Of a stretch of 39,957 nucleotides of DNA, positions 1,957 through 33,594 are shown in pieces. The stretch covers positions 1-39,957 of the forward strand of contig JAIVJG010000206.1 in NCBI GenBank assembly GCA_020200155.1. The letters run 5' to 3'. Under the pieces are notes generated by a model. The model did not search any database, was not told where the DNA came from, and was given only the letters and a program-made list of their open reading frames with translations. Source of the DNA: Acidobacteriota bacterium (GTDB lineage: Bacteria > Acidobacteriota > Blastocatellia > Pyrinomonadales > Pyrinomonadaceae). The position numbers and the translations under genes are program-made. The first letter of the stretch is position 1. Each line of letters opens with the position of its first letter.

Positions 1957-2008
1957 TTATTCCGCCCGGACGTGCGGGCGGACACTCTGTGGGATTTGAG
2001 TTGATAAG

Positions 2009-13726: not shown

Positions 13727-13744
13727 TGCTGCACCTGACTTCCA

Positions 13745-14404: not shown

Positions 14405-14684
14405 ACAGGACAGGCGGGCTTCTTGAAATCGCGTCGAAACTTTTAAATACCGGCCATAACAGCGGCTTTTGCTGTGCGAGCAGCGCGGCGACGGAATTAT
14501 ACACCCGTAGAGCGTTCCGCCCGGATGATATACACGCCGGATGTCCGGCGCAGTTCCGTAAAAATCGCTCTTGTATGGAGACGCCTGAAGCTTTCCGCGT
14601 GATTGCCGGGCAGAGGGGAACAGCCTGCTTGACGGCGGATGAGTCGGGCACATTTTATCCACGCGTTCGCTGCGTACTCGCGAG

Positions 14685-14791: not shown

Positions 14792-17266
14792 ATGACGAAG
14801 CAAATCACAAAGCACAGGGACATCCTGCGCGCCATTGAGAACGTCGAGATAATCTCGGAACTGGTCGAGCGGCGCGACGGCCATTACGTGCACGAACTCG
14901 ACCTCGAAGTGATCGCCTACGGTCGCAACTACAACGGCAAAAAGGTCGGCCCCTACGTCCGGCTGTTCGAGTATGCGCCGGGCGAAGTGCTGCTCCGGGA
15001 GGGCGACTGGGGCGGTAACACTTTTTACATCTCCGTCGCGGGCGCGCTCGACGTGTACGTGAAAGACACCGCGAGCGGCGAAGACAGGAAGGTCGGGGAG
15101 ATTCCGCCCGGCACGAGCTTCGGCGAAATGTCCGTCCTCGCCGGTATCCCGCGAAACGCGACAATCCGAGTCCCGCCGGACTCGACAGCCTCCGTTCTCG
15201 AACTCACACGGCCTGCCCTCCGGCTGCTGCGAAAGTTTCCACGCTTCGGCCAACAACTCGACGCCACTTATCGCCAGCACGGTTTGGCTCGCGCGCTCGT
15301 CGAGGTCAAGCAGTTTACGGGCGACGCTTTCAGCGCAGAGCTAATCGAGAAACTCGGCCAAGCCGCGCGCTTCATGGTCTATTCCAGACACCACGTACTT
15401 TTTCGCGAAGGCGACCCGGTTGACCGCGTCGTCTTCATCCGCAACGGATGGGTGCGGCGCGTGCGCGGCATGGGTGCAGGGACGCTTGGAGTCGAACAGT
15501 TGGCCTCCGGCCTGGGCGAACAGGAAGGCGTGGACTTTCTCGGCGAGGGCAATTGCCTGGGACTCGAAGGCGTCAGCCGGGATCGGCATTGGGGCTACAC
15601 GGCGACGGTCTTACAGCGCACCGAAGCGCTCGAAGTCTCAATTCCGCGCCTGCGCGCAGACGAGCGTTTGCGCGAGACGCTGGCGCGCACCTTCGCGGAC
15701 TTCTCGCTCGCCGACGACGTTGTCTCGGTTTCCACGCGTCTCGACAAACGCGTCATCACGGCGACCGAGCGAGAGATCGCGACGGGCATCGTGGACGGCG
15801 CGAATTTGCTCGTGATGGACATGGACAAGTGCGTGCGCTGCGGCAACTGCTCGCTGGCCTGTCACAAGGTACACGGCCAGTCGCGTCTGCTGCGCCGAGG
15901 CATCCACATCGAAAGACCTTTGAAGCTCGGCGGCGTTTCGACTCAGCACGTCCTTGTGCCTTCTGTGTGTATGCACTGTCAAGACCCCGAATGCCTGACC
16001 GGCTGCCCGACCGGGGCCATCGGTCGCTTCGTCGGCGGGCAGATTGATATTGACCCGAAGACCTGCATCGGTTGCGGCGACTGCGCCACGCAATGCCCCT
16101 ACAACGCGATCTCGATGATTCAGCGCAAGCCGGACGCGCCCGCGCCTGAACCTTTCGCCGCACGCATCACAGGCTGGCTGAACCTCGCTCCCGAAAAGCT
16201 CCCGCCGCCCGTGGCGGCGACGGAAAACCTGCTCGCCGCAAAATGTAATCTCTGCGCAGGCACACGGCTTAACCCGCCGGGGGCGCGCACCGAAAGCTAT
16301 TCGTGCCAGGAGAACTGTCCCACAGGCGCGCTCGTGCGCGTCAACCCGCGCGAGTATTTCACGGAAGTCAACCAGCGCCTCGGCTTCATCTATCGCGACC
16401 AGACGCACGCCATCGGTCGCAACATCCACAAGCGCGACACGCTCGCGCGCCTCTTCCACGCATTCGGCATCGTCGCCACCATCGCCGTCGTCCTGCTCAT
16501 CGTGCGCGGGCTGCTCCGCCACGGCCTCGACGGGCGACTCGGCGACACGTGGCTGACGCTTCGATGGATTACCGGCCTCGTCGGACTCTTCGGCGTGGCG
16601 GCGGTGATGACTTATCCCGCGCGGAAACAAGTCTACAGGCGTCGTGCGGGGCCGCTCCGCTACTGGATGCTGGCGCACGTCTATCTCGGTTTGATCGCGG
16701 GCGTCGTGCTCCTGCTGCACGGCGGGCGCGCGACGGGAGGCTTGCTGACTTCAGCCCTGATGATGACGTTCGACGCCGTCATCCTCACTGGCCTCTTCGG
16801 ACTCGCATGCTACTACGTCTGCCCGCGCGTGATGACGAGCATCGAAGGCGAGCCGCTGCTCGTCGAAGACCTGCAAGCGCGACGCGCAGAGTTGCGCGCG
16901 ACGTTGTCCGACATCGCCTTCGGCAGCGGCGGGAGCCTGCACGCCTCACTCCGTAGAAAGGCGCGCGGCAGATTCCTGTCTGTCTCGTTCCTGCTGCGCC
17001 AGTACTTCAGGCGCGAGCCTTTGCCGGAGTTGCTGGCCTCTGCGCGCGGAGAATTTGAGGGCGAGGCACGAAGCCTCGACGCGGAATCGCGCCATACGTT
17101 GTTGGAAATCATCGAGGCATCCGTCACGCTGCGACGCGTTGATTCGCTCATCTACCTGCATCAACTACTCAAGCTCTGGCTCGCGCCTCACGTAGTGGCG
17201 ACTTCGCTGATGCTTGTGCTGATGCTTGTTCACGTCATTCAAGTCGTCTTTTTCGCTGTGCGTTAG
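14792..17266 (+). CDS. Fusion protein: two cyclic-nucleotide-binding-like domains, four [4Fe-4S] ferredoxin motifs, C-terminal membrane cytochrome-b-like domain
   Basis: CNB1 phosphate-cassette-like FGEMSVLAGIPRNATIRV; degenerate second CNB (LFREGDPVDRVVFIRNGWVRRV); Fe-S motifs CVRCGNCSLAC, CMHCQDPECLTGCP, CIGCGDCATQCP, CNLC...CQENCP; C-terminal TM helices with His (AHVYLGLIAGVVLLLHGG, LAPHVVATSLMLVLMLVHVIQ). Confidence 0.85.
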   Translation: MTKQITKHRDILRAIENVEIISELVERRDGHYVHELDLEVIAYGRNYNGKKVGPYVRLFEYAPGEVLLREGDWGGNTFYISVAGALDVYVKDTASGEDRKVGEIPPGTSFGEMSVLAGIPRNATIRVPPDSTASVLELTRPALRLLRKFPRFGQQLDATYRQHGLARALVEVKQFTGDAFSAELIEKLGQAARFMVYSRHHVLFREGDPVDRVVFIRNGWVRRVRGMGAGTLGVEQLASGLGEQEGVDFLGEGNCLGLEGVSRDRHWGYTATVLQRTEALEVSIPRLRADERLRETLARTFADFSLADDVVSVSTRLDKRVITATEREIATGIVDGANLLVMDMDKCVRCGNCSLACHKVHGQSRLLRRGIHIERPLKLGGVSTQHVLVPSVCMHCQDPECLTGCPTGAIGRFVGGQIDIDPKTCIGCGDCATQCPYNAISMIQRKPDAPAPEPFAARITGWLNLAPEKLPPPVAATENLLAAKCNLCAGTRLNPPGARTESYSCQENCPTGALVRVNPREYFTEVNQRLGFIYRDQTHAIGRNIHKRDTLARLFHAFGIVATIAVVLLIVRGLLRHGLDGRLGDTWLTLRWITGLVGLFGVAAVMTYPARKQVYRRRAGPLRYWMLAHVYLGLIAGVVLLLHGGRATGGLLTSALMMTFDAVILTGLFGLACYYVCPRVMTSIEGEPLLVEDLQARRAELRATLSDIAFGSGGSLHASLRRKARGRFLSVSFLLRQYFRREPLPELLASARGEFEGEARSLDAESRHTLLEIIEASVTLRRVDSLIYLHQLLKLWLAPHVVATSLMLVLMLVHVIQVVFFAVR

Positions 17267-17292
17267 GGTTGGTTTCGATTGAACAAAGTCTA

Positions 17293-18750
17293 ATGATGGA
17301 GACGCAGGCCAGCAAGTACATCATCACGCGGGAAGATTTGAACGTTGATCCCATCGCGCTCCTGACGGACGGGTTGAAGATCGGTCGTCTGCCGGGTTGC
17401 GAGTTGGTCTTGAATCACCCGACCGTGTCGCGACTCCACGCCGGGATCAACGCGGCGGACGGGCGCTTCTACGTTTTCAATTTCAGCCATTCGAGCGGCA
17501 CGACGCTGAACGGGCGAGTCATCCCCGTCGAGGAGGCGGAGGTGCTTGCCGACGGCGACGCGCTCCAGATCGGCCCTTTCATCCTCCACGCCCAACGCCA
17601 GGGCGACGCACTCAATCTACGCGTCTCGCTTCAGGTAGCGGTAAAAATCGGCGAGGTGGAAGCCCGCGACGACATTCACGCCGCATCCACACGGGCCGTC
17701 GAAGCCAAACAGGACGCGAGACTGATGAGCGGTATTTCAGACTCTTTGAGCGTCTTCTGGGAAAAGCGCAAACGCGAGGCCGGCAAGATGCAACGCCTGT
17801 CGGCGCTCAGGCCGCAGGCCCCTTCACGCGTCCTCGGCAAGGCGCGTTTCAACTGGACACCGACGCGCGACCTCGTGCGACCCTGGCCCGTCTCCGTCTT
17901 CGTCTGGGGAGTCATCGTCGTCGGACTTCTCTCCGTCGTCGCCGCCGTCGGATATACGAAGGCTTTCTCGCCCGCCCCACTCTCCGGCGCGCACGCACGC
18001 GCGACGGCGCAAGTCGCGCCCGCGATTGCCGTGCGACCAAACGCCAACTCGTGTACGACGTGCCACACGCTCAAGTCGGGCATGGAATCAAACTGCGCCG
18101 CCTGTCATCAGACGGAAGCGTTTGCAGCCACCATCACGAAGCCGCATGTGGACGCGGGCATCACCTGCGTCAACTGTCACGCGGAGCATCGTGGCGTCGA
18201 GTTCAGCCCCGCCGCCGACGGCGTGCAGGCGTGCGCGAGTTGCCACGACGACGCGAACCATCAACTCTATCGTGGGAAGCCAGTGAAGACTCCGCACGGC
18301 GGCACGTTCGGCTATCCGGTGGCTAACGGCAAGTGGGTTTGGGCCGGACTCGATCAAGCGGAGTGGGCACGGAAGCCGCCCGGCGTGCGCGAGGCGCTCG
18401 GGCGAATGGAGGACGCAGCGCATCGCCAACCCACTGCCGGCGACGCGGCAGACCGACAGCGCAGCGCGCAGTTTCACATCCTGCACCTGCACCGCGTGAA
18501 GACCGTGGAAGGTCTGCGAGGAAACAAAGACGGTGAGATGTCCTGCTCAAGCTGTCATCAATCGTTCGCGCCGATTGATCGCATCACGCCGCGCACCACC
18601 TGCGCTTCGTGCCACAACGGAAACCGCGCCGGGCGCTTTCAAAGCGTGGTCGCCGGGGATCAGCCGAACTGTGTTTCGTGCCACGTCCAGCACTTTAAAG
18701 ACGCGCGACCGTGGGCGTCATTATTTCTCGACGGAGCGCGCGGGCAATAG
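17293..18750 (+). CDS. FHA domain - TM helix - heptahaem c-type cytochrome fusion
   Basis: FHA signatures KIGRLPGCELVL, TVSRLHAGI, FSHSSGTTLNGR; TM PVSVFVWGVIVVGLLSVVAAVGY; seven CXXCH: CTTCH, CAACH, CVNCH, CASCH, CSSCH, CASCH, CVSCH; alternative TTG start 17269. Confidence 0.88.
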   Translation: MMETQASKYIITREDLNVDPIALLTDGLKIGRLPGCELVLNHPTVSRLHAGINAADGRFYVFNFSHSSGTTLNGRVIPVEEAEVLADGDALQIGPFILHAQRQGDALNLRVSLQVAVKIGEVEARDDIHAASTRAVEAKQDARLMSGISDSLSVFWEKRKREAGKMQRLSALRPQAPSRVLGKARFNWTPTRDLVRPWPVSVFVWGVIVVGLLSVVAAVGYTKAFSPAPLSGAHARATAQVAPAIAVRPNANSCTTCHTLKSGMESNCAACHQTEAFAATITKPHVDAGITCVNCHAEHRGVEFSPAADGVQACASCHDDANHQLYRGKPVKTPHGGTFGYPVANGKWVWAGLDQAEWARKPPGVREALGRMEDAAHRQPTAGDAADRQRSAQFHILHLHRVKTVEGLRGNKDGEMSCSSCHQSFAPIDRITPRTTCASCHNGNRAGRFQSVVAGDQPNCVSCHVQHFKDARPWASLFLDGARGQ

Positions 18751-18781: not shown

Positions 18782-20335
18782 ATGAAAAAGGTTCAACTCT
18801 TCTTCATCCTTGCGCTGATGATTTTAATGCTGGCGGCCAACCAGTTGATTGGCGCGGCGGGACGGAATCTGCTCGGCGGCCTGCCGTGGTACGGCTGGAC
18901 GGGAGCCTGTCTTTTCCTTCTCGTCATCGGTCTCTTTTTCTCCTTCCGCGACGCGGCGCGAGAGCGACTGCTGCTTCAGTGGGGCGTTGTGCCGGACGCG
19001 TCAATAGACGAAACGAACGTCCCTCTGACCCTCGAACAACTTGAGAAGTACGACCCGGACGGGCCGGACTACCCGCACCCCGTCATCATCACCGAACGCT
19101 GCATCGGCTGCCACGCCTGCGTGGATGCGTGCCCGCACGACGTGCTCGCCATCGTCAACAACTACGCCACGCCCGTCGCGCGCGACCAGTGCATGGAGGA
19201 CACGTCCTGCCAGGTCGAGTGCCCCGTCAGCCCGAAGGCGTGCATCGTCGTCAACACGACGAAGAAGATACCGCCGCGCAAAGTTCCGAATCGCGATGCA
19301 GCTTTTATGACGAACGTGCCCGGCTGCTACATCATCGGAGATGTCTCCGGCACGCCGCTCATCAAGAACGCCGCCAACGAGGGCGCGGGCTGTCTCAGGC
19401 ACATAGCAGCCGAGTTGGGAGGAGACGAAGCGGCGCGCGAGCCGAAAGCCGAAATCGCCGTCGCCATTATCGGCGTGGGGCCGGCGGGACTCTCCGCCGC
19501 GATCACCGCGCAGACGCTCGGACTGCCTTACGTCGCCATCGAGCAGGACAGGGTGCTCGCGACGATTGACGCTTACCCGGCCAACAAGTTCATCTTCTTC
19601 AAGCCGGAGACGATGGAATCGCGCGGCGCGATTCGCGTCGAGGGGGCGGGCGCGCAACGCGAGGCGATTCTCGACGACTGGAAGCGTGCGATGGCGGAGA
19701 GCGCCGTGCGCGTGAACGAGGATGAGAGTTGCAGGTCTGTCAAAAAGGCTGCGGACGGCGACTACTTTATCGTCGAAACCGAGAGAGGTTTCGAGAAGGA
19801 GCCTGTTATCTATCGCGCACGGCGCGTCGTCCTCGCGCTGGGGAATCGCGGCACGCCGATGAAGCTGAATGTGACGGGCGAGAATCTCAAGGTCACGCGC
19901 GACGGCAGGACTGAGGACAAAGTGAAATACAGGCTGGCGGACGCAGAAGCATACAGGCGGCGGCGCATCGTCGTGGTCGGCGCGGGCAACTCGGCCATCG
20001 AGGCGGCGGTTGATCTGGTCGCGCGTCGCGACGGCAATCGCATCAGCTTTCGCCCCGAAGACGAAATCAACGAGGTCGCGCTCGTCATCCGTAGCGACCT
20101 GAAGAACGACCTCAAGTTCGAGAACAAGATGCAGGTCTACGACTGCATTGACGAGGGCAGGATGCAAGCTTTCTTCGGCACGGCGATAAAGGAGATACGC
20201 GACGGCGAAGTGGTTCTGATGAACGCGCGCACGAAGGAAGTCACGCAGACGATTCCGAATGATTACGTCTTCGCCATGATCGGCGGCGACCGCCCGACGA
20301 AATTTCTGGAATCAATCGGAATAAAAATCGGCTGA
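18782..20335 (+). CDS. Membrane-anchored ferredoxin/FAD-NAD(P) pyridine nucleotide oxidoreductase fusion
   Basis: Two N-terminal TM segments; CIGCHACVDACP plus C..C..C..CP-like CMEDTSCQVECPVSPKAC; FAD Rossmann IIGVGPAGLSAAITA; NAD Rossmann VVGAGNSAIEAAVDL; GCYIIGDVSGTPLIKNAANEG. Confidence 0.87.
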   Translation: MKKVQLFFILALMILMLAANQLIGAAGRNLLGGLPWYGWTGACLFLLVIGLFFSFRDAARERLLLQWGVVPDASIDETNVPLTLEQLEKYDPDGPDYPHPVIITERCIGCHACVDACPHDVLAIVNNYATPVARDQCMEDTSCQVECPVSPKACIVVNTTKKIPPRKVPNRDAAFMTNVPGCYIIGDVSGTPLIKNAANEGAGCLRHIAAELGGDEAAREPKAEIAVAIIGVGPAGLSAAITAQTLGLPYVAIEQDRVLATIDAYPANKFIFFKPETMESRGAIRVEGAGAQREAILDDWKRAMAESAVRVNEDESCRSVKKAADGDYFIVETERGFEKEPVIYRARRVVLALGNRGTPMKLNVTGENLKVTRDGRTEDKVKYRLADAEAYRRRRIVVVGAGNSAIEAAVDLVARRDGNRISFRPEDEINEVALVIRSDLKNDLKFENKMQVYDCIDEGRMQAFFGTAIKEIRDGEVVLMNARTKEVTQTIPNDYVFAMIGGDRPTKFLESIGIKIG

Positions 20336-20378
20336 AGACGAGACCCGGCGTAGGCTTGAAGAGATGAGCCGCGAAAGA

Positions 20379-20429
20379 GAGGCAGCACGCTCAAAAAGTA
20401 GCAAAGCGTGCTGCCTCGCAGTTTTTTTT
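20379..20429 (+). terminator. Strong Rho-independent terminator closing the 14792-20335 unit
   Basis: 13-bp perfect stem GAGGCAGCACGCT (20379-20391) / AGCGTGCTGCCTC (20405-20417) followed by GCAGTTTTTTTT. Confidence 0.9.
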
Positions 20430-20431
20430 AA

Positions 20432-20968
20432 CTATGGCTCAAGGCCGTTGGTGGGGATGGGCCGGTGAACCGAATAAGTGTAAATGTCTTCGATCTGCTT
20501 GACCTTGCTTTTGGCTTCCTCGTTGTCTGGCTGGTAGCGGAGAGCGCGACGGAAATCACCCAGTGCGTACCTGTAGAGGCGCGGGTCGCCAGCCGTGTAA
20601 TAAAAATTCCCGCGCGCCAAATACGCGGCGGCGGCGGCTTTTTTATCGGCAATGGATGCGGCGGGCGTCGTTGCCTTCGCCGTCGTCTTTTCTACTTTAG
20701 CGTCGAGTTCGGGAGTCGCGACCGGGGCTTTGTCGGGAGCATTCGACGCGGCGGGCGCGCCGTTGTTGCCGGCGTCGCCGTGCGCGGATGCGACGACGGG
20801 CGGGGCCGTCTGGTTTGAAGCAGCACTCGCGTCGCCGCTCCCGTGCGCGGAAATGGCGGCGTCCGGTGTAGGGGCGGACGGCTGCTGACCGGCAGGCCGA
20901 TTGTTGTCGCCGCACGCGATGTGCAAAACGCTCGTCGCAAATATCAGCGCTCGCAGTAAGTGTCTCAT
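20432..20968 (-). CDS. Lipoprotein with TPR-like C-terminus
   Basis: Signal/lipobox VLHIACGDNN; C-terminal YALGDFRRALRYQPDNEEAKSKVKQIE; start MRHLLRAL at 20968. Confidence 0.65.
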   Translation of the reverse strand: MRHLLRALIFATSVLHIACGDNNRPAGQQPSAPTPDAAISAHGSGDASAASNQTAPPVVASAHGDAGNNGAPAASNAPDKAPVATPELDAKVEKTTAKATTPAASIADKKAAAAAYLARGNFYYTAGDPRLYRYALGDFRRALRYQPDNEEAKSKVKQIEDIYTYSVHRPIPTNGLEP

Positions 20969-21072
20969 TCTCGCCCTGGCTGCTCCTGCCTTTTCTCTCT
21001 TCAACTTGAAACGCGAAGGCCCTTCGACGCTCGCTCTCGACAAACGTTCGTGTGCGTTGGGGTGAGGAAATT

Positions 21073-21430
21073 TTATTGACCAGTGTGGCATGCCTTGCAG
21101 GACTGAGAGGTCGGAATCTTGAGAGTCTTCCTCATCTCAGCGGCCGGCTGCTTCCGCCGCAGGCTGGTCTGTGTGATGACACTCGATGCAGGCAATCGGC
21201 TTTGTGCCGTCAATGCTGTAATTTTTGGTCGAGTGATTGGCATGATTGAAGGTCACGGCGGGAGCGTCGGCGGGTTTCTTCGCATCCGTCGCGAGCTTGT
21301 AAACTTCCTTCGGCAGCTTGGAGTCTTCGGCGATCAGCGACGCCGATCCAGACTTGAGAGACGGCAAGTGGCAGCCCGACATTTGCCCTGCAAAGACGAC
21401 GAAAGTCGCCAGCACGATGATTTTTTTCAT
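21073..21430 (-). pseudogene. Small dihaem (c3/c7-type) cytochrome c lipoprotein, frameshifted between its two haem motifs
   Basis: Frame 1 (ORF 21137-21475): MKKIIVLATFVVFAGQMSGC...FNHANHSTKNY...CIECHH; the second motif SCKACHTGQ* is found one frame over, ending at 21073. Confidence 0.75.
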
Positions 21431-21585
21431 GGTTGCCTGCATTGAGAGCCTCTTCCCTGTCGTGGAATTCTGCAAAGAATTAAGTGGGAAAGTTTCACCT
21501 TGCGCGTGGGGAGCGAAACGTATGATCTTGGTTGGGGAGAAGTTCTTGATAACGAGCTAAATCATATGCCGTGTGCAGGTGCTTG

Positions 21586-22557
21586 TCAAACTTTCTGTTT
21601 TTGAATGATTGGCTGCTGGAAGCGAAACGTCGCGCCACGATGGCAACGCTTGCAGTCGGAAAAATCATCGCCGCCGAAGGCACGGCGGTTGTCGTGGCAG
21701 GCCGCGCAACTCCGCGCACGCGCGGGCGCGAAATGCTGCGCCGGGAGCGGCGAGGCGACTTGCCTCGACTGCGGCAGCCCGGCCTTCACCGTATGGCAAT
21801 CCGCGCAATTGAGGCCCACGCGCTGGCTGTGCGCGGCGTGGCTGAAGTTGATGGCGAAGGCTCTCGCGTTCGTCGGCGTCCGCGCGTAGCGACCGGGGGC
21901 GTGGCACGCATCGCAGGAAGAGATGTCGCGCCCGCCCGACTGCGCGCCGGGCGTGTGGCACTGGTAACAGTTGGCGTGCGCGTCAAGCCCCGTCACGATT
22001 GAGAAGGCAACGCCACGCCGCGCGGGCGTGTGGCACGCGACGCAGCCCGCCGTTGGCCGCGCCGCGCCGCTCGTGTGCTGCGCGTGGTCGAACCGTGCGT
22101 TGAAACTTTTAAGCGCCGGAAACGACTTGACGGGTGGAGAGCCTGATTCGAGATTCGTGTGACAGATCATGCACATCCCGCTCTCGGCAGTGACGAACTG
22201 CTGGACGTGGCAGTCCGTGCAAGCTTTGTGTCCGGGGAGTTCGGGCCGGGGTGAGTTGGTTTCGCGCCGGTGGCAGGACGCGCACGCGAGCGCGGCGTGG
22301 CGCGGCGTGGCGTGCGAGAAGGTGGAAAAATCTTGCGCCGCATCGGGACGTGCCGCAGCCGTCAATGCAAAGCGTTCCAGTTGCCCGGCAGGCTCCGGCG
22401 CGAGCGTGCGCGTGACCGCTTTCAGCAGTGTTGAGAGCGGAAACAGTGAGCAGGCGGCGACACAAAGCAGGAGCGAGAGTGTCCGCCGCACGCGAACGGA
22501 GGGTGACTCTTCATTCGCGCACGAATATTTTCGCTTGTCTGTGTCCGGCACGTTCAT
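21586..22557 (-). CDS. Nonahaem c-type cytochrome (cytochrome c3 family-like)
   Basis: Nine CXXCH: CASCH, CTDCH, CMICH, CVACH, CYQCH, CDACH, CADCH, CAACH, CKRCH; N-terminal hydrophobic segment; FSHATPRH, FDHAQH, FSHAAH distal His. Confidence 0.88.
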   Translation of the reverse strand: MNVPDTDKRKYSCANEESPSVRVRRTLSLLLCVAACSLFPLSTLLKAVTRTLAPEPAGQLERFALTAAARPDAAQDFSTFSHATPRHAALACASCHRRETNSPRPELPGHKACTDCHVQQFVTAESGMCMICHTNLESGSPPVKSFPALKSFNARFDHAQHTSGAARPTAGCVACHTPARRGVAFSIVTGLDAHANCYQCHTPGAQSGGRDISSCDACHAPGRYARTPTNARAFAINFSHAAHSQRVGLNCADCHTVKAGLPQSRQVASPLPAQHFAPARARSCAACHDNRRAFGGDDFSDCKRCHRGATFRFQQPIIQKQKV

Positions 22558-22566
22558 CAGGAGAAT

Positions 22567-23811
22567 TTATTTCGCCTTCGGCGGCGAGACCGCGTCAAGA
22601 TGTGTTTGCGGGAGAGCCTCTCTGCCGTAGTTGAGGTGGCACTTGACGCACCGGAACGCGGGATCGGCGCGTCTCTTTTCCACCTCGATGTTAAGAATCT
22701 TTTTGGGAATCGTCGCCTTGATGTGGCAGCCCGTGCCGCCTCCGCCGCACGTCAGCAGAGGAACATTCAACGTTCGCGCGTCCAGCAGGCTGATGGCGGA
22801 GATGTTGATGTGGCAGGCCGTGCAGCCGACGTTTTCGTGCTTCGTCTCTTCGTGCCTGAAGGTAGCGACATCACGGCGCTGCCATTTCTCAAGCACGTGC
22901 GCGTCCGTCAAGCCCATCGCCGTCGCCAACTTCGGCACGGCGTCTGTGTGTGAAGGAGTCGGAGGCGCGAGCCGCACGCCGGGCAGAAGTTTGTGGCAAC
23001 CGGCGCAGTCGGACGAGAGAGGCTTTTCGCCGCCGTCCTGCCAGTGACAGTTGAAACAGGACGCGTGGCTTTCGGGCGTCGTCTTAAACGTCCCCTTCTT
23101 CATCCAGAAAGCGCCTTCCGGTAAATCCGCGGGAGGCTTGACGACATACCTCTCGCCGCCGTCGCCTTCGGGCTGGTATGTCCGGTGGCAGATCGAGCAG
23201 CTATCAATTTTTCTCGACGACTCCTGCCGGCGAAAAGAGGCGCGCACGAAGAGACCGCCCGATTCATCTTGAAAGTCTTGCTGCTGTAGCGCCATCACGT
23301 CCTGATGCCTGTCATGGGGAAAGTTCAAGCCGAACTCAGTTGCGCCTCGCTTCGCCTTCGGCCTCGCCGCGTCGAAAGTCTCTTTCGGATTGCTGAAAGG
23401 GTAGCGCGTGCCGTCGCGTGGCGAGACGTTGGAGTGACAGACGGAGCAGATGACGGGACGCGCCTCGCTGAAGAATTGCCGTCGGTGACAGTTCACGCAC
23501 GAAGGGTGATCCGGGTAGTCGGTCACGTCCGGGAAAGCCTCTTCCCTTTCGCGCACGCGCGTCCAGTTTGGCGTCGGCGCGATGTGGCAGGAACTGCAAG
23601 CCTGCCGGTGTTGCGGGGTGCGATGGGAAAATGTCGAATAGTCCGGGCGCGGCGCGCGTCTCGAAGTTTGTGCGGGCGGGCTGGATTTGGCTTGGCCCCG
23701 CTGTGTTGCGTAGGCATTCAACACGGCGGCACTCGACGACAGACGCGGCCACGCGCAGATCATCGTCGCCAGGACGATTAAAGACGCGCGCATGATTGTT
23801 GGACGATTCAT
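22567..23811 (-). CDS. Octahaem (possibly nonahaem) c-type cytochrome
   Basis: Eight CXXCH: CSSCH, CVNCH, CSVCH, CSICH, CFNCH, CAGCH, CTACH, CVKCH, plus atypical CGGGGTGCH; N-terminal signal. Confidence 0.87.
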   Translation of the reverse strand: MNRPTIMRASLIVLATMICAWPRLSSSAAVLNAYATQRGQAKSSPPAQTSRRAPRPDYSTFSHRTPQHRQACSSCHIAPTPNWTRVREREEAFPDVTDYPDHPSCVNCHRRQFFSEARPVICSVCHSNVSPRDGTRYPFSNPKETFDAARPKAKRGATEFGLNFPHDRHQDVMALQQQDFQDESGGLFVRASFRRQESSRKIDSCSICHRTYQPEGDGGERYVVKPPADLPEGAFWMKKGTFKTTPESHASCFNCHWQDGGEKPLSSDCAGCHKLLPGVRLAPPTPSHTDAVPKLATAMGLTDAHVLEKWQRRDVATFRHEETKHENVGCTACHINISAISLLDARTLNVPLLTCGGGGTGCHIKATIPKKILNIEVEKRRADPAFRCVKCHLNYGREALPQTHLDAVSPPKAK

Positions 23812-24385
23812 TCGATCTTCTGCGTAGGGGCGGGCTGCTTAGGGAAGGCGAACTCGACCGAGACCGAATAAAGCTGCCGGGGGATGGGCGGCGGCACAGT
23901 GACTTTGCAATTCCAGAGCACGTCGCCGTCTTCAAGCGGGATGAGGTTCGAGATGAAATAATCCATGAGCCGGACATTCGTGAAATACGCGGCGCCCTTC
24001 TCGTCCGTCATCACGGACTTCACTGTGCTGCCCCTCTGTGCGGCGCGGTCGAGCCATCGCGCAACTGCGCGCTCGCGCCGCTCAGGAAGGCGTCACGTTT
24101 GGGCGCGTCGCGCCAGTTGAGGACGCCGTCTTCCTGTATGTTTTTTTCGAGAAGGTAAAAGCGTTTGCGTGGAAGCGGCTTGCCGTCGCGGCCCGTGACG
24201 GTGAGTTTGATTCCGCTGAGAGCATCGGGCGCGGGCGCGGCTTCCGCTTTAACGCCCTTCGCCGTATTAACCACGCAAGAGCCGCTGGCCGGAGAAGTTG
24301 TCTGGGCTTGTGAGTGGACACAGCCGAGGCTCAGCACTAAAAGAGTCGCCTTCAGCCAAAGCGGAATTGTCAGGGCAGGCTTCAT
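23808..24385 (-). pseudogene. Secreted carboxypeptidase-regulatory-like / hypothetical protein, frameshifted
   Basis: ORF 24020-24385 (signal peptide, IKLTVTGRDGKPLPRKRFYLLEK) reads out of frame after SGASAQL; the other frame gives ARWLDRAAQRGSTVKSVMTDEKGAAYFTNVRLMDYF (ORF 23808-24023); its stop overlaps the ATG of the next gene (ATGA). Confidence 0.7.
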
Positions 24386-24403
24386 CCATTCACGCAGTAA
24401 ATC

Positions 24404-25174
24404 TCAAGTCTGAACACGAGTTTTGCTGCCCGCTCCCGCAGTTGGAGAGCCGGCTGCTTTGCGCGCTTTCTCTAACGTCTCGCGCAGGCGCGGCAAGTCC
24501 TGATTCTTCGGGTTGGCCTTTTCGAGTCGCGCGAGCGTGCGATCAGCTTCTGCGAAATCACCCTTCTTCGTCAGCGCGAGCGTCAGATTGTGCAGCGTCG
24601 GGAGGTGATCGGGTTTACGTTCGAGGACGCGTCGAAACTCCGCAATCGCCTTGTCGGTTTGCGACGGCTCGCGCACGAAATACGTGAGGCCTAGATCGGC
24701 GCGCACGTCCACGTCGTCCGGCTTTTTGGCGAGCGCCTCTTTGTACCACTGCTCCGCGACTTCATAGTGCTTCCACTCGAAGTTGACGTTGCCGAGATTG
24801 ACCAGCGTGGAATAATCGCCGGGGCGTATCTGGTTGGCGCGCGTCAGTGAATCAATCGCCTCTTCGTACCTCCCGGCCTGCTCGCTGAGGGTGGCGGCCT
24901 TCGACTGCGCGTCGAAATCCTGCGGCGCTTCCCTCGCGGCATTCTCGGCCTGCTCGGCGTCCTGTCGCAGCGTCCCCTGATCCTTGACGGAGTTCATAGG
25001 CAACTGCGGATGGTCGGGCGGCAGTTCGCCGTCAGACTGTCCGTCGAGCTTCGACGCAGACTGTCCGGCGCGTGTGGAGGATTGATTCTGATTGACGTAG
25101 ACGACGAACGTGAAGCCGATGATGTAGCCGAGCAGCACGCCGATGATGGAAAAAAGGAGGTTTTCTCTGGACAT
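24404..25174 (-). CDS. TPR-repeat protein with N-terminal TM helix
   Basis: MSRENLLFSIIGVLLGYIIGFTFVVYV; TPRs such as NQIRPGDYSTLVNLGNVNFEWKHYEVAEQWYKEALAKKPDDVDVRADLGLTYF. Confidence 0.85.
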   Translation of the reverse strand: MSRENLLFSIIGVLLGYIIGFTFVVYVNQNQSSTRAGQSASKLDGQSDGELPPDHPQLPMNSVKDQGTLRQDAEQAENAAREAPQDFDAQSKAATLSEQAGRYEEAIDSLTRANQIRPGDYSTLVNLGNVNFEWKHYEVAEQWYKEALAKKPDDVDVRADLGLTYFVREPSQTDKAIAEFRRVLERKPDHLPTLHNLTLALTKKGDFAEADRTLARLEKANPKNQDLPRLRETLEKARKAAGSPTAGAGSKTRVQT

Positions 25175-25240
25175 TCAAGTGCGGCGGCGAGTGGCGAGCA
25201 GGAGTTTTTCAACTCGCCGCTCGCCGCTCGCCACTGATTT

Positions 25241-26875
25241 TCACGCGTAAGAGTGGAGGCCCGGCAGCAGGTAGCTGACGCCGAGGTAGGTGAAGATGAC
25301 GAGCAGGAACGCGACGATGGCGAAGTACGCGGACGCGCGGCCAGTCCAACCGCGCGAGATGCGCGAGTGTAGAAACGCCCCGTATGTCAGCCATGCGACG
25401 AACGCGCCCGTCTCTTTCGAGTCCCATCCCCAGTAACGACCCCACGATTCGTTCGCCCAGATCGCGCCCGTCATCAGCAGCAGGGCGAGACCGGCGAAGG
25501 CGACGCCCCCGGTCTTGTACATGAGGCTGTCAATCTTCTCCTTGTCGGGCAGCGCCGCGCGGAGTTTGTCTGTGCGGAAGCTGAAAATGATGACGAAGAG
25601 CGTAGCGGCGAAGGCCGTGATGAGCGCGGCGAGTTCGACCGGGTTGGCGTTCAAACTCAGGAAGAGTTTCGATTGGTTTTCCTGAATCCAGTTACTGGCC
25701 CCGCGCTCAAGTTTGTCGTCGGGAATCTGCGCGGTCTGCTCCGGCGTCAGCCCTTGCTGCTCGGCCATCCAGACGCCGAACTTGTGAAACCTTCGCGCGT
25801 CCACGCAGGCCGTCCCTTCAGGTCGCTCGCCTGCGCAGACGGCGACGCTTGTGATGCCCTTGACCTGCGACACGAGCACGACGATGGCGAGCACCTGCAC
25901 GATCAGCGACGCTTTCAGCAGATAGTGACCCCAGCGTTTCGATTGCTCGTCCTTTTTCGCGACGTACCTACCGAAGAGCGCGATCACGCCGAGCAACAAT
26001 ATCCCGGCCAGTACAAGCAGCGGGCCGACGTAAGGGATGTCCGCGCGCAGGGGGAGCGGCATGCGCGGAGGGAGGAAAGTAGAAGCGGAATAAGTCGCGG
26101 TGGTAAGGATGGGGAACGTCCCGAACGTGCCGCCTATCGTCGCGATGACCGCGAGCGCGAAGATGCTCGACCAGATCGCCATCGCCTCGACCTTGACGCC
26201 GTCCTTCAGCAGATAGACGACCGCGATGGCAAAGCAGACCATCGCGATGCCGTAGCTCAGCGAAGCGATGCCGACGTGAATCGGTCGCCAGTATGAATCG
26301 AGTACCGGCGGCAGGTTGATGAATTCGCCGCCGATGAAGCGCGCGAGAATCAGCACCAGCGAAGCGAGCGGCAGAGAGATTGCGCCGAGGAAGCGGAAGT
26401 TTCGACGGTGCGCGATCAAAAGCGTCGTGATGCCTGCACCGAACGCGAACGCCAGGCTCAGGTCGTAGAGGTTCGCGAACGGGATGTAGCGGAAGAACCA
26501 CGGCATCTCGCCGCCCTGACGCGAGAGGATCGCCAGTTCGCGGTCGTGCGCGGCAATCCAGCGCACGCCCCAACTCGAAGCGTTAAAGAAGACGCCCGCC
26601 GTTGCCGTCCACAGGCCGATTTTCTGAAAGAGCGTGGACGGCGCGTAGAGGTTCGTCAGGAAGAAGACGGCTGCCGTCAGGTAACTGGCGAGCGCCAGCA
26701 TCATCAGCGCGCCGTCCGAGATGAAATGCTCCCCGCCCGTCTGCCAGCGCAGGAGCGTCAACAGGATTGCCCCGCCGACCGCGAGCATCGCCGGGAAATA
26801 AGACATCAGCGAAGAGTCTTTGATTGAAAGTTCCGGGGTGGTAAGCACCGACGGCTGACTGAGAGCTTCACTCAT
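25241..26875 (-). CDS. ccsA: Cytochrome c biogenesis protein CcsA/ResC (System II)
   Basis: WGWDSKETGAFVAWLTYGAFLHSRISRGWTGRASAYFAIVAFLLVIFTYLGVSYLLPGLHSYA and multiple TM helices; WGRYWGWD haem-handling motif. Confidence 0.93.
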   Translation of the reverse strand: MSEALSQPSVLTTPELSIKDSSLMSYFPAMLAVGGAILLTLLRWQTGGEHFISDGALMMLALASYLTAAVFFLTNLYAPSTLFQKIGLWTATAGVFFNASSWGVRWIAAHDRELAILSRQGGEMPWFFRYIPFANLYDLSLAFAFGAGITTLLIAHRRNFRFLGAISLPLASLVLILARFIGGEFINLPPVLDSYWRPIHVGIASLSYGIAMVCFAIAVVYLLKDGVKVEAMAIWSSIFALAVIATIGGTFGTFPILTTATYSASTFLPPRMPLPLRADIPYVGPLLVLAGILLLGVIALFGRYVAKKDEQSKRWGHYLLKASLIVQVLAIVVLVSQVKGITSVAVCAGERPEGTACVDARRFHKFGVWMAEQQGLTPEQTAQIPDDKLERGASNWIQENQSKLFLSLNANPVELAALITAFAATLFVIIFSFRTDKLRAALPDKEKIDSLMYKTGGVAFAGLALLLMTGAIWANESWGRYWGWDSKETGAFVAWLTYGAFLHSRISRGWTGRASAYFAIVAFLLVIFTYLGVSYLLPGLHSYA

Positions 26876-28058
26876 GATTTCTTCACCTCTAAAACTTCTC
26901 CGCTAATCGCGCCGGTCAGGCGCTTGAAGCGGTCGCCGAAGCCGAGCTTGTTGCGGTTCGTGTTTCCGCCCAGCACGACTTCAAAATTCTGCGGCCCGCG
27001 CTCCTCGACGAGCGCCCAGACGCGCTGGTGTGAGAAGAAGAAGACCGCGCCGAGCGTCATCGCCAGCATCAGGAAGCCGACGTAGACCACGGGCGAGCCG
27101 GGGTCTTTCTGAATCGAGAGAACGTGTGCCAGAGGCACTTTCTCGTAATCAACCAGCCGCCATGTGTAGCCGGCGACCGGCTTCTTCGCGATGGGCGCGC
27201 GTTCGGCCATATCCGGCGAGAAGGCGAAAGCCTTGACGGCCTCGCCCCCCGGCGGGTGAATTAAAAGTGTCGCCGCCGGGTTGGTATAGACGCTCCGCTC
27301 CGTCTCCACCTGCTCGGAGCCGAGGCTGAACTGCGCGTTGAAATCCATGAAGTCAATCCGCGTCCCGTCGGGCAGCGTCGCGGAGCCTGCGCGCGGGATG
27401 TTCACGTCCTGCGGCGCGCCGCCGCTCTCAGGCGTGACGCGGAGCGTGATGCTGCGAGCCTTGCCGTCGGCGATGAAGCTCGCCTGAAACAAACGATAGC
27501 CGTGATAGTCGTATGGCGCGTTCAGATGAATCAGCGCCTCCTGTTCGCCGTAGGCAGAGTCTTTGATCTTGACGCGGGTCAGCCAGTCGAGCGTGTTGTC
27601 CGCAGTGATCGGGCCTTCCTTCTTGATGAGCTTTTGCTGTATGTCCGTGCATTCGACGGTGAACGGAAGCGGCGTGACGGACTTCGCGATCTTGTCCACG
27701 TCGTTAACGACCTCCGTCATCTCGCTCGGTCAATCGAGGCGAGGATGATATTGAGCGAGAGGACGAGCAGCAGCACGTTGAAGTACCAAACGTGGTAGAT
27801 GTCGAAGAAGCCGAGCTTGCCGAACAGGAGCTTTGTCGCGGGCGTCAGTTGAGCGTAATACTTGTCGAAGCCCTCGACCGATTGCTGCATGACGAGCATG
27901 CCGATCATCGAGCCGATGACGAGCAGCACGAGCAGCGTGACGCCGAAGCGTACGGAACTGAGCAGGTTCAGCGTCCGCGTGATGAAAGAGGGCGATTCCG
28001 CTTTCGCGCTCCCCTGCTGCACGCCAATCTCACTTTTAGTTTCTTCTATTGCCGACAT
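26872..28058 (-). pseudogene. resB: Cytochrome c biogenesis protein ResB/Ccs1, disrupted (internal segment missing)
   Basis: ORF 27717-28214 gives ResB N-terminus (SSVRFGVTLLVLLVIGSMIGMLVMQ...YHVWYFNVLLLVLSLNIILASIDR); ORF 26872-27720 gives the periplasmic/C-terminal part (VDYEKVPLAHVLSIQKDPGSPVVYVGFLMLAMTLGAVFFFSHQRVWALVEE); the intervening third-TM/His region is absent; overlaps ccsA start by 4 nt. Confidence 0.8.
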
Positions 28059-28363: not shown

Positions 28364-29110
28364 ATGTCAAAAAATATTCTTCTTTGCAGTCTCGGCATCA
28401 TCCTCGGTTTCGTGATCGGCTTTTTCATCGCCAACGCCGTCACGCGCCCCGGCACGCCCGTCGCCCGTGCGCGTTCCGCTTCAAACGACTCGGCGGGGCC
28501 GCTCGATCCAGAGCAATCCGCCGGCGCTCTCCCACCCGGACATCCGGACATCAACGGCGCGGGCGGCGCGGACGACGAAGGCGGGAGCGCCGCCGCCAGT
28601 TCAGCCGAAGCGCAGGCCGCGATGGACAAGGCTGACCGCAGCCCACAGGATTTCGACGCGCAGATCGCCGCCGGCGATGAGTTTTACTCGTCGCGTGATT
28701 ACGGGAAAAGCGCGCTCTATTTCGACCGCGCGCTTGCGCTCAAGCCGAAAGATTTCGCGGCGCTCGTGGGGATGGCGAACACAAAGTACGACGCCAATGA
28801 TTTCGTGGGAGCTGCGAGTTATTACGAGCGCGCACTCGCAATCAAACCTGACGACCCGGACGTGCGGACGGATTACGGCAACACCTTCTTCAACCGCGTC
28901 CCGCCAGACTATGACCGCGCCATCGCCGAATATCGCAAGTCCGTCGCGATTGACCCGAACCACGCCAAGACTTGGAAGAACATCGCCGCCGCCGCGCTGC
29001 TCAAGCGAGACAAGACGACCGCCAGCGACGCCCTCAAGCATCTCGAAGACATCGCCCCGCAAAGCCCAGAACTACCGGAACTGCGACAAAGCGTCGAGAA
29101 ACTGCCCTGA
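28364..29110 (+). CDS. TPR-repeat protein with N-terminal TM helix (paralogue of 24404-25174)
   Basis: MSKNILLCSLGIILGFVIGFFIANAV; TPRs SALYFDRALALKPKDFAALVGMANTKYDANDFVGAASYYERALAIKPDDPDVRTDYGNTFF. Confidence 0.85.
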   Translation: MSKNILLCSLGIILGFVIGFFIANAVTRPGTPVARARSASNDSAGPLDPEQSAGALPPGHPDINGAGGADDEGGSAAASSAEAQAAMDKADRSPQDFDAQIAAGDEFYSSRDYGKSALYFDRALALKPKDFAALVGMANTKYDANDFVGAASYYERALAIKPDDPDVRTDYGNTFFNRVPPDYDRAIAEYRKSVAIDPNHAKTWKNIAAAALLKRDKTTASDALKHLEDIAPQSPELPELRQSVEKLP

Positions 29111-31118
29111 GCGGACGGGCGGCGATGCTTCCAACGAGTTCGCCGTTTTTGTAGAGCGGGATGCTGCCGGCGAATATCTGTATGCCGTTCGCCAGTTGAG
29201 GAATCGTCGAGCAGCGCACGTTAGCCCCGCCGATGGCCGCGAGTAAATTCGCCTTAATCAAATCGAGTTGCAGTCCCGTGTTGAAGACGCTCCACTCGGA
29301 AATTTCCGTGCTGAAAGGGCCGGCGGGATTCGGGTTGAGGCCGTCGGGGTAGAACGGCCTGTGCAGGAATCCGACAGCGCGGTCGGAGAACGCCACAGCG
29401 CCGTCGAGCATGAGACGGTCGCTGTTCGCGCGGTCAACGTAACTGCCCATCCCGGCCCCGCGCAACAGCGTCGCCGCGTTGCGATTTGTGAAGAAGGCCG
29501 CCGTGCGCGCTTTCTGCACAGACACGTCGAAGCCGAAGACCGGCGCATCCGTCGTGCGGAAGATTCCCAGAACGATTCCGTCCGCATCCACGACGGCGAT
29601 GCTGACGCGCGCCTGGCTGCCGAGCGGCTGCCGGATTGCGGCGCGGGTTATTTCCGCCTGCTGTGCCGCCTGCGCGATGATGCGCCCCACGTCCGCCGTC
29701 GTCAGCGAGTTCGGCGATACCGAGGCGCTGCCGTTGAAGGGAAAGAAGCGCGTGTCAATCGCACCGCTGACGCCGCCGACCGACGCGGGCACGAATGACG
29801 AAGGCTGCGCGCCTTGAATCGGGTAAGACGAATTGACCGCGCCGGGCAGACCGGCGAAAGGCAACGTGGACGGGCGCGGCGCGTCCGTGTCCGTCACGCT
29901 GAGATATGCGAGGCGGACGCCGCCCACCAGTATGTTGTCGCCGCGAATGAGCGACGGCGGCTCGAATCCACGCGCGGCGGCGACGGCGATTTGTTCCTCG
30001 AAGGGCTTGTCAAAATCAGCAGGGTCTTTATCCAACGCGTAAACGCCGTCGCCCTCAATGCCGACGCCGCCCACCGCGACGCCGTTTTTGTAGAGCGGCG
30101 AACTGCCGGGGTCAGCCGAGAGGCCGAGCGGCAACGACGGCTTCTTGATGTCGCCGCATGGCAGCGAAGAAAACTGCACGCCGAAGAGAGGGCCGCCCGG
30201 TTGAAAGTCCACGCGCGGCGGAAAGTGTTCCTGAATGATGAAGCCTGCGGTGCGCGTCGTGAAGGCGTTGCCGCCGGTGCTGAAGAGGCTGGCCGTGCCC
30301 GCCTTCGAGATGGCCGCCAGCGACGCAGGGACGCTCAGGCCTTCCAACCCGCGCCCCGGTTGGCCGCCGCCGCGTATCTGCGTCGTGGCTGCCGCGCCGT
30401 TCATGTCGAAGACGCCGAGCACGTTTCCTTCCCTGTCCGTCACCGCCACCGTCACCGCGCGATTGAGCGCGACGGCGGCGGAGACGGCCTGCGCGATCAC
30501 GGCCTGAACTTCGACGGTCGTCAGATTCCCGGCGGTGTCGGGGTTGGTGTTCGGCGTCGGCGAGACAACAGCAGCCGGGGCCGGCGTCGGCACGGCCCCG
30601 CTGTCGTCCGGCAAGCCGCCGCCGACGTGGCCGATTCCAACGCGCACGCGATTGCTGGCGACACCTTGATAAGTCACACGCACCAACACATCCCCCACGT
30701 CGCCCAACTCATCATTGAGTTTGACGACGACCGAACTCATCCACTCCTGCCCCGGCACAGGCCCGACGTGCTCGACCGCGAGCGTGTAGATGCGATGCGC
30801 GCCGTCCTCCGCATCCGCAGTCACGCCGGAATAATCTCCTGCCGCGTCCAGTTGGAGGTTCATCGCGAAGAGCATCACGCGCGTGCGATTGTCCGCGCTC
30901 AAACGAACCGGAGAAGCAAGCGCGAACGGCTCGCGCAGGCGCGTCACCGAATCGAGCGCGACGGCGCGCGTCGTCGTCGTTTCGCTGAGCAGGACTGGTC
31001 TGTTGAATTGGGCGGACGCGGGCGGAGTGGGCGAACTCAATGCAAACGCCGGCAGGAGCGCGATGGCGGCATACAAGGCCAACCGATACCCGCGCAAAAG
31101 TGAAACGTGGCTGTTCAT
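29034..31118 (-). pseudogene. Secreted protein with two GlcG/HbpS-like (haem-binding protein family) domains; C-terminus apparently truncated
   Basis: LTTVEVQAVIAQAVSAAVALNRAVTVAVTDREGNVLGVFDMNGA and LTTADVGRIIAQAAQQAEITRAAIRQ..VSIAVVDADGIVLGIFRTTDAPVFGFDVSVQKARTAAFFT; GSIPLYKNGELVGSI then loses similarity to the first copy (SSPLYKNGVAVGGVGIEGDGV...). Confidence 0.7.
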
Positions 31119-31338
31119 GCAGATGATGCGACGGTCTTCGTCGAGCGTATGCGAAGGTTCGCGGCACAAATGTAGCACCTCCTTTTTCCGCGTCAAGTTT
31201 TTCCTTGCCGGTCGAATAAAGCTCGCGCGCACGGGCTTCGCGCACTCCGCTATCAATCCAGCCCGCGCGGGAATAATTTTATTGCCTCCGGTACATTCGC
31301 CGTGCTACAAGGCTCGTACCTTGCACCCGCGTGAACGA

Positions 31339-33594
31339 ATGACCCGAATCTTTCACAGAAGAAGGATGCGACCTACTTTTCTTCGACTGGAAGCGCCTAC
31401 GGCACGACGGTTGTCGCGGAGGCCGGGCGTGCCCTCACTCTCTTCAGGATTTCGCCTGCCGTGTCTGGCGCTTCTTCTTCTCCTCGTCTCCGCACCGTGC
31501 GTTTACGGACAGGGGCGTGGGCATCTGGCGGGTAAAGTCCGGGAACCCGGCGATGCGGCAACAACTCCGGCGGGCGGCGTTGAAGTCGTGGCCGTCAATC
31601 AAGTGAACGGGCGGATTTTTCGCGCACGCGCAAGGCCGGACGGCAGCTACGTCCTTGAACTTCCCGCAGGCGCGTACCGCGTGAGCCTCAAAGCTCCCGC
31701 GAAAGCTAATTTCGTGAGCGGCGGGAAGTACGGCCCGCTCGCACTGCCGCGCGGCGCATTCGTCGAAAACATCTCCGTCGAGGCGGGCAAGGAAACCGCG
31801 CTCGATATTCCACTGGCGAAGAGCGAGCCTCAACCCTCCGCTCAAACTGCGCGCGTCGTCCCGAAGGCCGCCGGGAATGAACGTCCGCTCGGCCACGCAG
31901 GCGCTTCGAGCGTCGAGACCGAAGCGCCGACGAGGGCTGGCCGCGTGCCCATGCGCGACCGCTGGCGAATTGGCTTTCCCGAATACGAACGCTACGGCAG
32001 CGTCGCCGCCGGGCGCGACATTCCTTTCAAGAAAGGCCACTGGTACGACCCCTACAACCAGAACGTCTTCAAAGGCGACTATCCGATCTTCGGCCAGCAC
32101 GTTTTTATGATCCTGTCCGGCGTCAGCAACACTGTCGTCCAGCAGCAGCGCACGCCCACGCCCTCGAACGTCAGCAGCGCACGCCCCGCGAGCGCCGAGT
32201 TCTTCGGCAAGCCGGAAGTCCTCGCCGCAAGCGAGCTTTTGCAGTTCACCTTCGAGATGTTCAGCGGCGACACCTCGTTCAAGCCTCGCTCATGGGCGAT
32301 TAAAATTTCGCCGACCTTCAGCATGCCGAACTACGTGCGCGCACGCGAGACCGGCATCGTCAACATTGACCCTCGTCGCGGCACTTCACGCACCGACACG
32401 CAATTCTCCCTCGAAGAAGCCTTCGCCGAAGTGAAGCTTGAAGACGTGAACGCGAACTACGATTTCATCTCCCTGCGCGCAGGCATACAGCCTTTCGTCT
32501 CGGACTTTCGCGGCTTCATCTACACCGACAACAACCTCGGCGTGCGCGTCTTCGGAGGCTTCGGCAACAATCGCTACCAATTCAACCTCGCCTACTTCGC
32601 GCAGCTTGAGAAGGACACGAACAGCGGCCTCAATCGTTTTCGTCGCCGGCGGCAAAACGTCTACGTCGCGAATATTTTTCGACAGGATTTTCTGGCGAAG
32701 GGCTACACGGGCCAGTTGAGCTTTCATTTCAACGACGACCGGCGCGGCGTCGAGTTCGACCGCAACGGCTTTCAGGTTCGTCCCGCCGTCATCGGCGACG
32801 CGCGGCCACACTCCATCAAAGTCGGCTATCTCGGATTTTCAGGCGACGGCCACGTCGGGCGTCTGAACCTTTCCAACTCTTACTACTTCGCGCTCGGCAG
32901 CGATTCGCGCAACCCCGTTGCCGGTCGCAGCACGCGCGTCCGTTCGCACATGGCCGCCGTCGAGGCTTCCGTTGATAAAGACTTCATGCGCTTGCGCGGT
33001 TCGTTCTTCTTCGCCTCCGGCGACAGGAATCCGACCGACGGCAAAGCGACGGGCTTCGACTCCATCCTCGACGATCCGAACTTCGCCGGCGGGCAGTTCT
33101 CTTTCTGGAATCGCGTCGGCATCCCGCTCGCCGGAACCAACGTCGGACTGGTGCAGCCGCTCAGCCTTCTTCCAAGTTTACGCAGCAGCAAAATTCAGGG
33201 ACAGGCCAACTTCGTCAATCCCGGCATACTGATCTACAACGCCGGCTTCGACATCGAAGTCACGCAGCGCGTCAAAGCCGTCTTCAATTTTAACCACCTG
33301 CGCTTTCATCGCACCGAGCCGCTTGAGTACGTGCTGTTTCAGAATCACATCCGTCACGACATAGGGCAGGACTTCAGCCTTGGCATCGCATACAGGCCGT
33401 TGCTCATCAACAACGTCACGCTGACCTTCGGCGCTTCGACGCTCAGTCCGGGGCGCGGCTTCCGCGACATCTACACAGATCGAACGCGCAACTGCCCGCC
33501 GAACGTCCGCGACTTCTGCGCGCCCGATGGAATTGTCATTGATCCGAAGAAACCTTTGTACGCGCTTTTCGCGCAGGCCAGATTTGTTTTTTAG
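31339..33594 (+). CDS. Outer-membrane beta-barrel protein with N-terminal carboxypeptidase-regulatory-like domain
   Basis: Signal peptide (LALLLLLVSAPCVYGQ); CRD-like PDGSYVLELPAGAYRVSLKAPA; alternating barrel strands in the C-terminal part, terminal ALFAQARFVF (C-terminal Phe). Confidence 0.78.
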   Translation: MTRIFHRRRMRPTFLRLEAPTARRLSRRPGVPSLSSGFRLPCLALLLLLVSAPCVYGQGRGHLAGKVREPGDAATTPAGGVEVVAVNQVNGRIFRARARPDGSYVLELPAGAYRVSLKAPAKANFVSGGKYGPLALPRGAFVENISVEAGKETALDIPLAKSEPQPSAQTARVVPKAAGNERPLGHAGASSVETEAPTRAGRVPMRDRWRIGFPEYERYGSVAAGRDIPFKKGHWYDPYNQNVFKGDYPIFGQHVFMILSGVSNTVVQQQRTPTPSNVSSARPASAEFFGKPEVLAASELLQFTFEMFSGDTSFKPRSWAIKISPTFSMPNYVRARETGIVNIDPRRGTSRTDTQFSLEEAFAEVKLEDVNANYDFISLRAGIQPFVSDFRGFIYTDNNLGVRVFGGFGNNRYQFNLAYFAQLEKDTNSGLNRFRRRRQNVYVANIFRQDFLAKGYTGQLSFHFNDDRRGVEFDRNGFQVRPAVIGDARPHSIKVGYLGFSGDGHVGRLNLSNSYYFALGSDSRNPVAGRSTRVRSHMAAVEASVDKDFMRLRGSFFFASGDRNPTDGKATGFDSILDDPNFAGGQFSFWNRVGIPLAGTNVGLVQPLSLLPSLRSSKIQGQANFVNPGILIYNAGFDIEVTQRVKAVFNFNHLRFHRTEPLEYVLFQNHIRHDIGQDFSLGIAYRPLLINNVTLTFGASTLSPGRGFRDIYTDRTRNCPPNVRDFCAPDGIVIDPKKPLYALFAQARFVF

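Follow-up and report, generated by a model that had tools for sequence, protein, structure and literature searches.

The window, by which we mean the whole stretch of DNA analysed (39,957 bp), probably encodes most of a porin-cytochrome conduit that is conserved in the class Blastocatellia, a reading that draws on gene content, motifs, synteny, co-occurrence and gene fusions. The window is an entire contig (C113) of a MAG of 312 contigs that is 92% complete, and it comes from a soil Acidobacterium. Three plus-strand genes (the trio t1, t2 and t3) face a minus-strand arm of cytochrome and Ccs genes, and a probable barrel gene and a large LVIVD cytochrome gene lie beyond that arm (Table 1). Blastocatellia are common in soils, and the class includes the phototroph Chloracidobacterium, to which three two-replicon genomes (G046, G050 and G054) look similar; to our knowledge, the class is absent from textbook lists of electron exchangers. 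In a sample of the phylum, t1 was found in 11 of 199 genomes at E <= 1e-60, and all 11 belong to the window's class. The named relatives that carry t1 are Pyrinomonadaceae, Blastocatellia and unclassified Acidobacteriota MAGs.

Table 1. Features of the window, by position
Feature	Position	Strand	Description
Sigma-70 family factor and downstream gene (possible anti-sigma)	12902-14500	-	conserved beside the trio
t1	14792-17266	+	two cNMP-binding domains, four [4Fe-4S] sites, 5-TM C-terminal domain
t2	17269-18750	+	FHA domain, TM, seven CXXCH
t3	18782-20335	+	two N-terminal hydrophobic segments, 4Fe-4S domain, YpdA-like FAD/NAD(P)H oxidoreductase
Bidirectional terminator hairpin between convergent units	20372-20432	both	U8 tract on the + (trio) side
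Small TPR-type lipoprotein	20432-20968	-	start at 20968 conserved; longer ORF open from 21091
c7/class III cytochrome	21066-21430	-	interrupted near 21140 by a deletion of ~239 bp; tetrahaem (198 aa) in relatives
Promoter TTGACA-N17-TATGAT upstream of the c7 gene	21561-21589	-	sigma-70-like, 11/12
Nonahaem cytochrome	21586-22557	-	9 CXXCH
Octahaem cytochrome	22567-23811	-	8 CXXCH
Hypothetical protein, N-terminal hydrophobic segment	23808-24385	-	deletion of ~208 bp near 24056
Membrane-anchored TPR protein	24404-25174	-	TPR (Pfam)
CcsA (System II), 544 aa	25241-26875	-	Cytochrom_C_asm (Pfam), WWD motif present
ResB, two ORFs (27717-28058 and 26872-27720)	26872-28058	-	ResB (Pfam); split by a deletion of ~337 bp
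Divergent TPR protein, conserved neighbour	28364-29110	+	
HbpS-like haem-binding/degrading protein	29034-31178	-	recurrent neighbour
Probable outer-membrane beta-barrel	31333-33594	+	N-terminal CarboxypepD_reg domain
Large LVIVD multihaem cytochrome	33595-37811	+	N-terminal hydrophobic segment; 9 CXXCH here, 9-10 in relatives
Class A beta-lactamase-like gene (Beta-lactamase2)	39059-39949		contig end

An earlier note on this DNA had described the minus-strand genes as a single operon of eight genes, separated by short gaps or four-nucleotide overlaps. The run of open reading frames is present, with ATGA overlaps between the ResB and CcsA genes (26872-26875) and between the hypothetical and octahaem genes (23808-23811). 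The ResB, CcsA, TPR and cytochrome assignments made in that note agree with Pfam (ResB, Cytochrom_C_asm, TPR and class III/c7), and its estimate of about 19 haem sites matches the 19 CXXCH motifs (8 + 9 + 2) counted on the minus strand. A terminator shared by the facing units had also been proposed, and the hairpin found there, of 13-14 bp, is far more stable than shuffled sequences on both strands (z = -5.1 and -5.7). One assignment had to be changed: the "dihaem" cytochrome is a truncated tetrahaem protein, whose intact relatives carry four CXXCH. The c7 gene starts 155 bp past the nonahaem gene and is preceded by a conserved sigma-70-like promoter inside the run; transcription of all eight genes as one unit is therefore not established. 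A comparable TTGACA-N17-TATCAT promoter lies 153-162 bp upstream of the c7 gene in three other genomes (L034, L093 and L102), and no such promoter was seen upstream of c7 in two further loci, which were scanned over different lengths. The arm may thus comprise two transcription units, with the last two genes (c7 and lipoprotein) forming a unit of their own.

The convergent layout of trio and cytochrome/Ccs arm recurs in G010, G018, G025 and G001, in G034 and on the JAFAZX and JAIVJI contigs, and rearranged forms in which trio and cytochromes are still linked are found in G006 and in G040, which belongs to another family. The cytochrome genes are convergent with the trio in most Pyrinomonadaceae and co-directional with it in G040, G037, G044 and G056. 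Synteny extends over the full contig in G010 (C114), G025 (C213) and G018 (C106), except for the block 29034-37811, of which the barrel and the large cytochrome are on a separate contig in G010. The linkage between the arm and the trio, on which the "one redox island" of the earlier note depended, is thus recurrent in several layouts, and the island is supported. It also extends further than the earlier note had drawn it: judged from the sequences, the barrel and the large cytochrome (31333-37811) belong to the unit proper as well. Co-occurrence and distance were counted in 60 genomes, with start positions taken from strong matches. The barrel is present in all 34 genomes that have the LVIVD cytochrome, and the two are at most 30 kb apart in 33 of them. 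Both the barrel/LVIVD pair and t1 are present in 33 genomes, t1 only in 3, the pair only in 1 and neither in 23 (Fisher p = 2.5e-12, not corrected for phylogeny). In G037, G044, G048, G049 and G056, the barrel, the LVIVD cytochrome, cytochromes of octahaem and nonahaem size, t1 and a fused t2-t3 form one co-directional run, which in three of these five genomes also holds a tetrahaem gene.

These data also bear on an alternative that we consider unlikely, in which trio and cytochromes work together as a redox module of periplasm and inner membrane (e.g., in redox sensing or in periplasmic reduction linked to NAD(P)H) and the barrel and LVIVD cytochrome are a separate system that merely co-occurs with it. 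A separate module would explain why the pair and t1 are on different contigs in G010, G034, G041, G045 and G053, and why G006 and G036 have t1 and cytochromes and lack a barrel match; in G040, the pair lies ~30 kb from the trio. However, it accounts poorly for the presence of t1 in 33 of the 34 genomes with the pair and for the single co-directional runs of all parts in five genomes.

The 16 invariant cysteines of t1 make up its four [4Fe-4S] sites, and the protein has a match to Fer4_11 (PF13247). Two WX3HX13H motifs (residues 625-643 and 796-814) lie on predicted helices 3 and 5; both are found in all 27 t1 sequences examined, with their four histidines invariant, and so is an [ST]GxxG motif on helix 4, in which T is commoner than S. 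The structure model of t1 is of low confidence (pLDDT 56). In t3, CIGCH is an Fe-S motif. In the 20 loci around t1, t1 and t2 always occur together, and t3 is with them in 17. In five loci (L113, L116, L121, L170 and L171), t2 and t3 are fused into one protein of 1060-1110 aa with the order FHA-TM-seven haems-TM-4Fe4S-FAD, a layout that gives the topology needed by the conduit model. Among the papers searched, we found none that joins an FHA domain, cyclic nucleotide binding and a multihaem cytochrome in Acidobacteriota. The sigma-70 family factor and its neighbour are kept next to the trio in several genomes and are possible regulators.

The beta-barrel fold is probable, as judged from a C-terminal ...FVF-type signature and from 26-36 amphipathic strands, compared with 17-22 in shuffled sequences. 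A single-sequence model of the barrel reached a pLDDT of 28.7, and a profile search against solved structures, MtrB-type barrels included, gave no sequence match. In G048, G049, G056 and G057 (loci L170, L171, L172 and L121), a tetrahaem class III domain with four CXXCH is fused to the barrel N-terminus; no such fusion was found in the window's family. Among 14 aligned LVIVD cytochromes, four carry ten CXXCH; the other ten carry nine, together with a single C-X3/4-CH, and this atypical motif sits in the same stretch as the extra CXXCH of the others (L164, L166, L167, L170-L172, L174, L177, L113 and L121). A match of the LVIVD N-terminus to octahaem nitrite reductases covered only ~58 residues and was set aside as generic haem packing. 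None of the papers searched dealt with LVIVD together with multihaem cytochromes. The HbpS-like protein is a frequent neighbour of both the barrel and the cytochromes.

From these features, we infer a path for electrons, its direction and its gating. NAD(P)H or ferredoxin would reduce the FAD/Fe-S protein t3, which would pass electrons to the four Fe-S clusters of t1 and from there, through two b haems in the five-helix domain, to the seven t2 haems on the periplasmic side; the five-helix domain may also be a meeting point with quinones. Electrons would then move from t2 through the periplasmic octahaem, nonahaem and tetrahaem cytochromes to the outer-membrane barrel, which would hold or contact the large LVIVD cytochrome, and the latter would meet the extracellular substrate. 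Electrons are more likely to flow outward than inward, and the cNMP and FHA domains would act as gates along the way. More tentatively, the conduit may serve the Blastocatellia at large as an extracellular route with an NAD(P)H/ferredoxin-linked entry at the inner membrane through t3, gated by cyclic nucleotide at the two cNMP domains of t1 and by phosphorylation at the FHA domain; t3 is fused to the periplasmic cytochrome (t2) in some families. Should the conduit function as proposed, metal, humic or electrode respiration could be tested for in soil Acidobacteriota, and the cluster would be an electron exit possibly gated by second messengers.

The earlier note had further held that the operon carries its own Ccs system, specifically serving these cytochromes. 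This now appears very unlikely, even though 15 of the 60 genomes have ResB-CcsA no more than 30 kb from the nonahaem gene and 9 have it within that distance of t1. The check that the note had proposed, for a second ccs/res system in the genome, returned only this locus and a HemX beside HemA: searches with PF05140 and PF01578 found one copy each of ResB and CcsA in the assembly, and that HemX is the sole other Cytochrom_C_asm match. A candidate second Ccs at G000:C155 was rejected as this same HemX, and neither a second housekeeping Ccs nor System I was found by these two profiles in the 92% complete assembly. In addition, PF13442 gave eight matches, seven of them above the curated cut-off, on seven other contigs, so that other c-type cytochromes are encoded elsewhere in the genome. 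CcsA is present in 53 of 60 relatives with no correlation with the trio (p = 0.23), and the five compact loci (G037, G044, G048, G049 and G056) are without Ccs. In a CcsA tree of 18 rows, several forks of which are unresolved, a dedicated clade was looked for and rejected; the two copies in G006 are sisters, as are the two in G015. The conserved internal promoter also argues against the operon as first described. On this sequence evidence, ResB-CcsA looks like the general haem-attachment machine of the genome, co-located with some of its largest users, and the Ccs linkage is a side feature of the cluster. As in System II, ResB and CcsA are adjacent and overlapping and CcsA has the WWD motif; the differences are that CcsA is long here and that ResB is broken, being intact in relatives only. 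No ResA/CcdA-type gene was found in the operon.

The break in ResB is one of several on the contig. Compared with syntenic relatives, ResB lacks ~113 residues (113-225 of the G010 counterpart) and changes frame, and the deletions estimated in the ResB, hypothetical and c7 genes are all out of frame; in G010, the short word TGGCT flanks the stretch deleted from the hypothetical gene. The ResB junction lies at about 27724 and that in nuoN at about 2383. The large LVIVD cytochrome has a frame break near 34035, where the frame is open in relatives. Outside the cluster, nuoN (2000-3228) has a deletion of ~400 bp and a frameshift, with residues 141-267 of the G010 protein absent, and nuoM (1-1309) is intact, as are CcsA, the octahaem and nonahaem cytochromes and the trio. 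These breaks are most likely assembly errors, because nuoN and the large cytochrome on the same contig are also broken; since two control contigs of the same genome (37 kb) showed no clear lesion, such errors would have to be local. Decay specific to the operon, the first explanation considered, was dropped as the main reading because nuoN is broken alike. We regard as improbable that the locus is decaying in this organism, with genuine deletions in ResB, the hypothetical gene, c7 and the LVIVD cytochrome. In favour of decay, redox-cluster genes hold four of the contig's five clear lesions and the control contigs show no clear one; against it, the lesion in nuoN of complex I is of the same kind, and the cytochromes, CcsA and trio genes just named are intact. 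Moreover, loss of the only ResB in the assembly would disable every c-type cytochrome, yet other c-type cytochromes exist, which favours an artefact.

The nearest known systems, judged by motif and description, include PCC3 and PCC4. Like the window, they combine a porin and multihaem cytochromes (outside the cell, in the periplasm or both) with a 5-TM inner-membrane protein bearing two WX3HX13H; in PCC3/PCC4, this protein also has SGxxG and was proposed to bind two b haems (He et al. 2017, PMC5566968). In PCC4 subgroup II, an Fe-S (pfam13247) gene adjoins the gene of the inner-membrane protein (PMC5566968), whereas here the corresponding Fer4_11 match is within t1, which fuses the 5-TM domain to Fe-S and two cNMP domains and has FHA-cytochrome and YpdA-like partners. 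The extracellular cytochrome of PCC3 has tens of haems and low-complexity repeats, in contrast to the 9-10 CXXCH and LVIVD repeats here; PCC4 has no extracellular cytochrome; here a large cytochrome with an N-terminal hydrophobic segment adjoins the barrel and may lie outside the cell. MtrCAB, MtoAB and PioAB likewise use a barrel and multihaem cytochromes to span the outer membrane, but the window gave no MtrB-type barrel match, and none of the operon cytochromes matched the DmsE/MtrA-type family. The barrels fused to a c-type cytochrome domain recall Cyc2, a fused cytochrome-porin, but Cyc2 is described as having one haem (Keffer et al. 2021, as cited in PMC10654088) and the fused domain here is tetrahaem class III. 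The proposed NAD(P)H/ferredoxin-linked, gated entry would also differ from CymA, CbcL and ImcH, which are quinol dehydrogenases. In a 2026 metagenome study of ghost-rock (cave), group 1 PCCs pair a porin with an adjacent large decahaem cytochrome of 4-5 kbp; 7 of 11 also have a gene for a ferredoxin-NADP+ reductase close by, and Acidobacteriota are among the PCC-bearing MAGs (PMC13264449). As compared by that description, the conduit of the window probably belongs to group 1; cNMP/FHA proteins, an LVIVD domain and Ccs linkage do not appear in the part of the description available (PMC13264449). A barrel gene, recognised by its sequence signature, stands beside a multihaem cytochrome gene, as in porin-cytochrome conduits generally, and the best reading of the window is a conduit of this known kind in a variant that is new.
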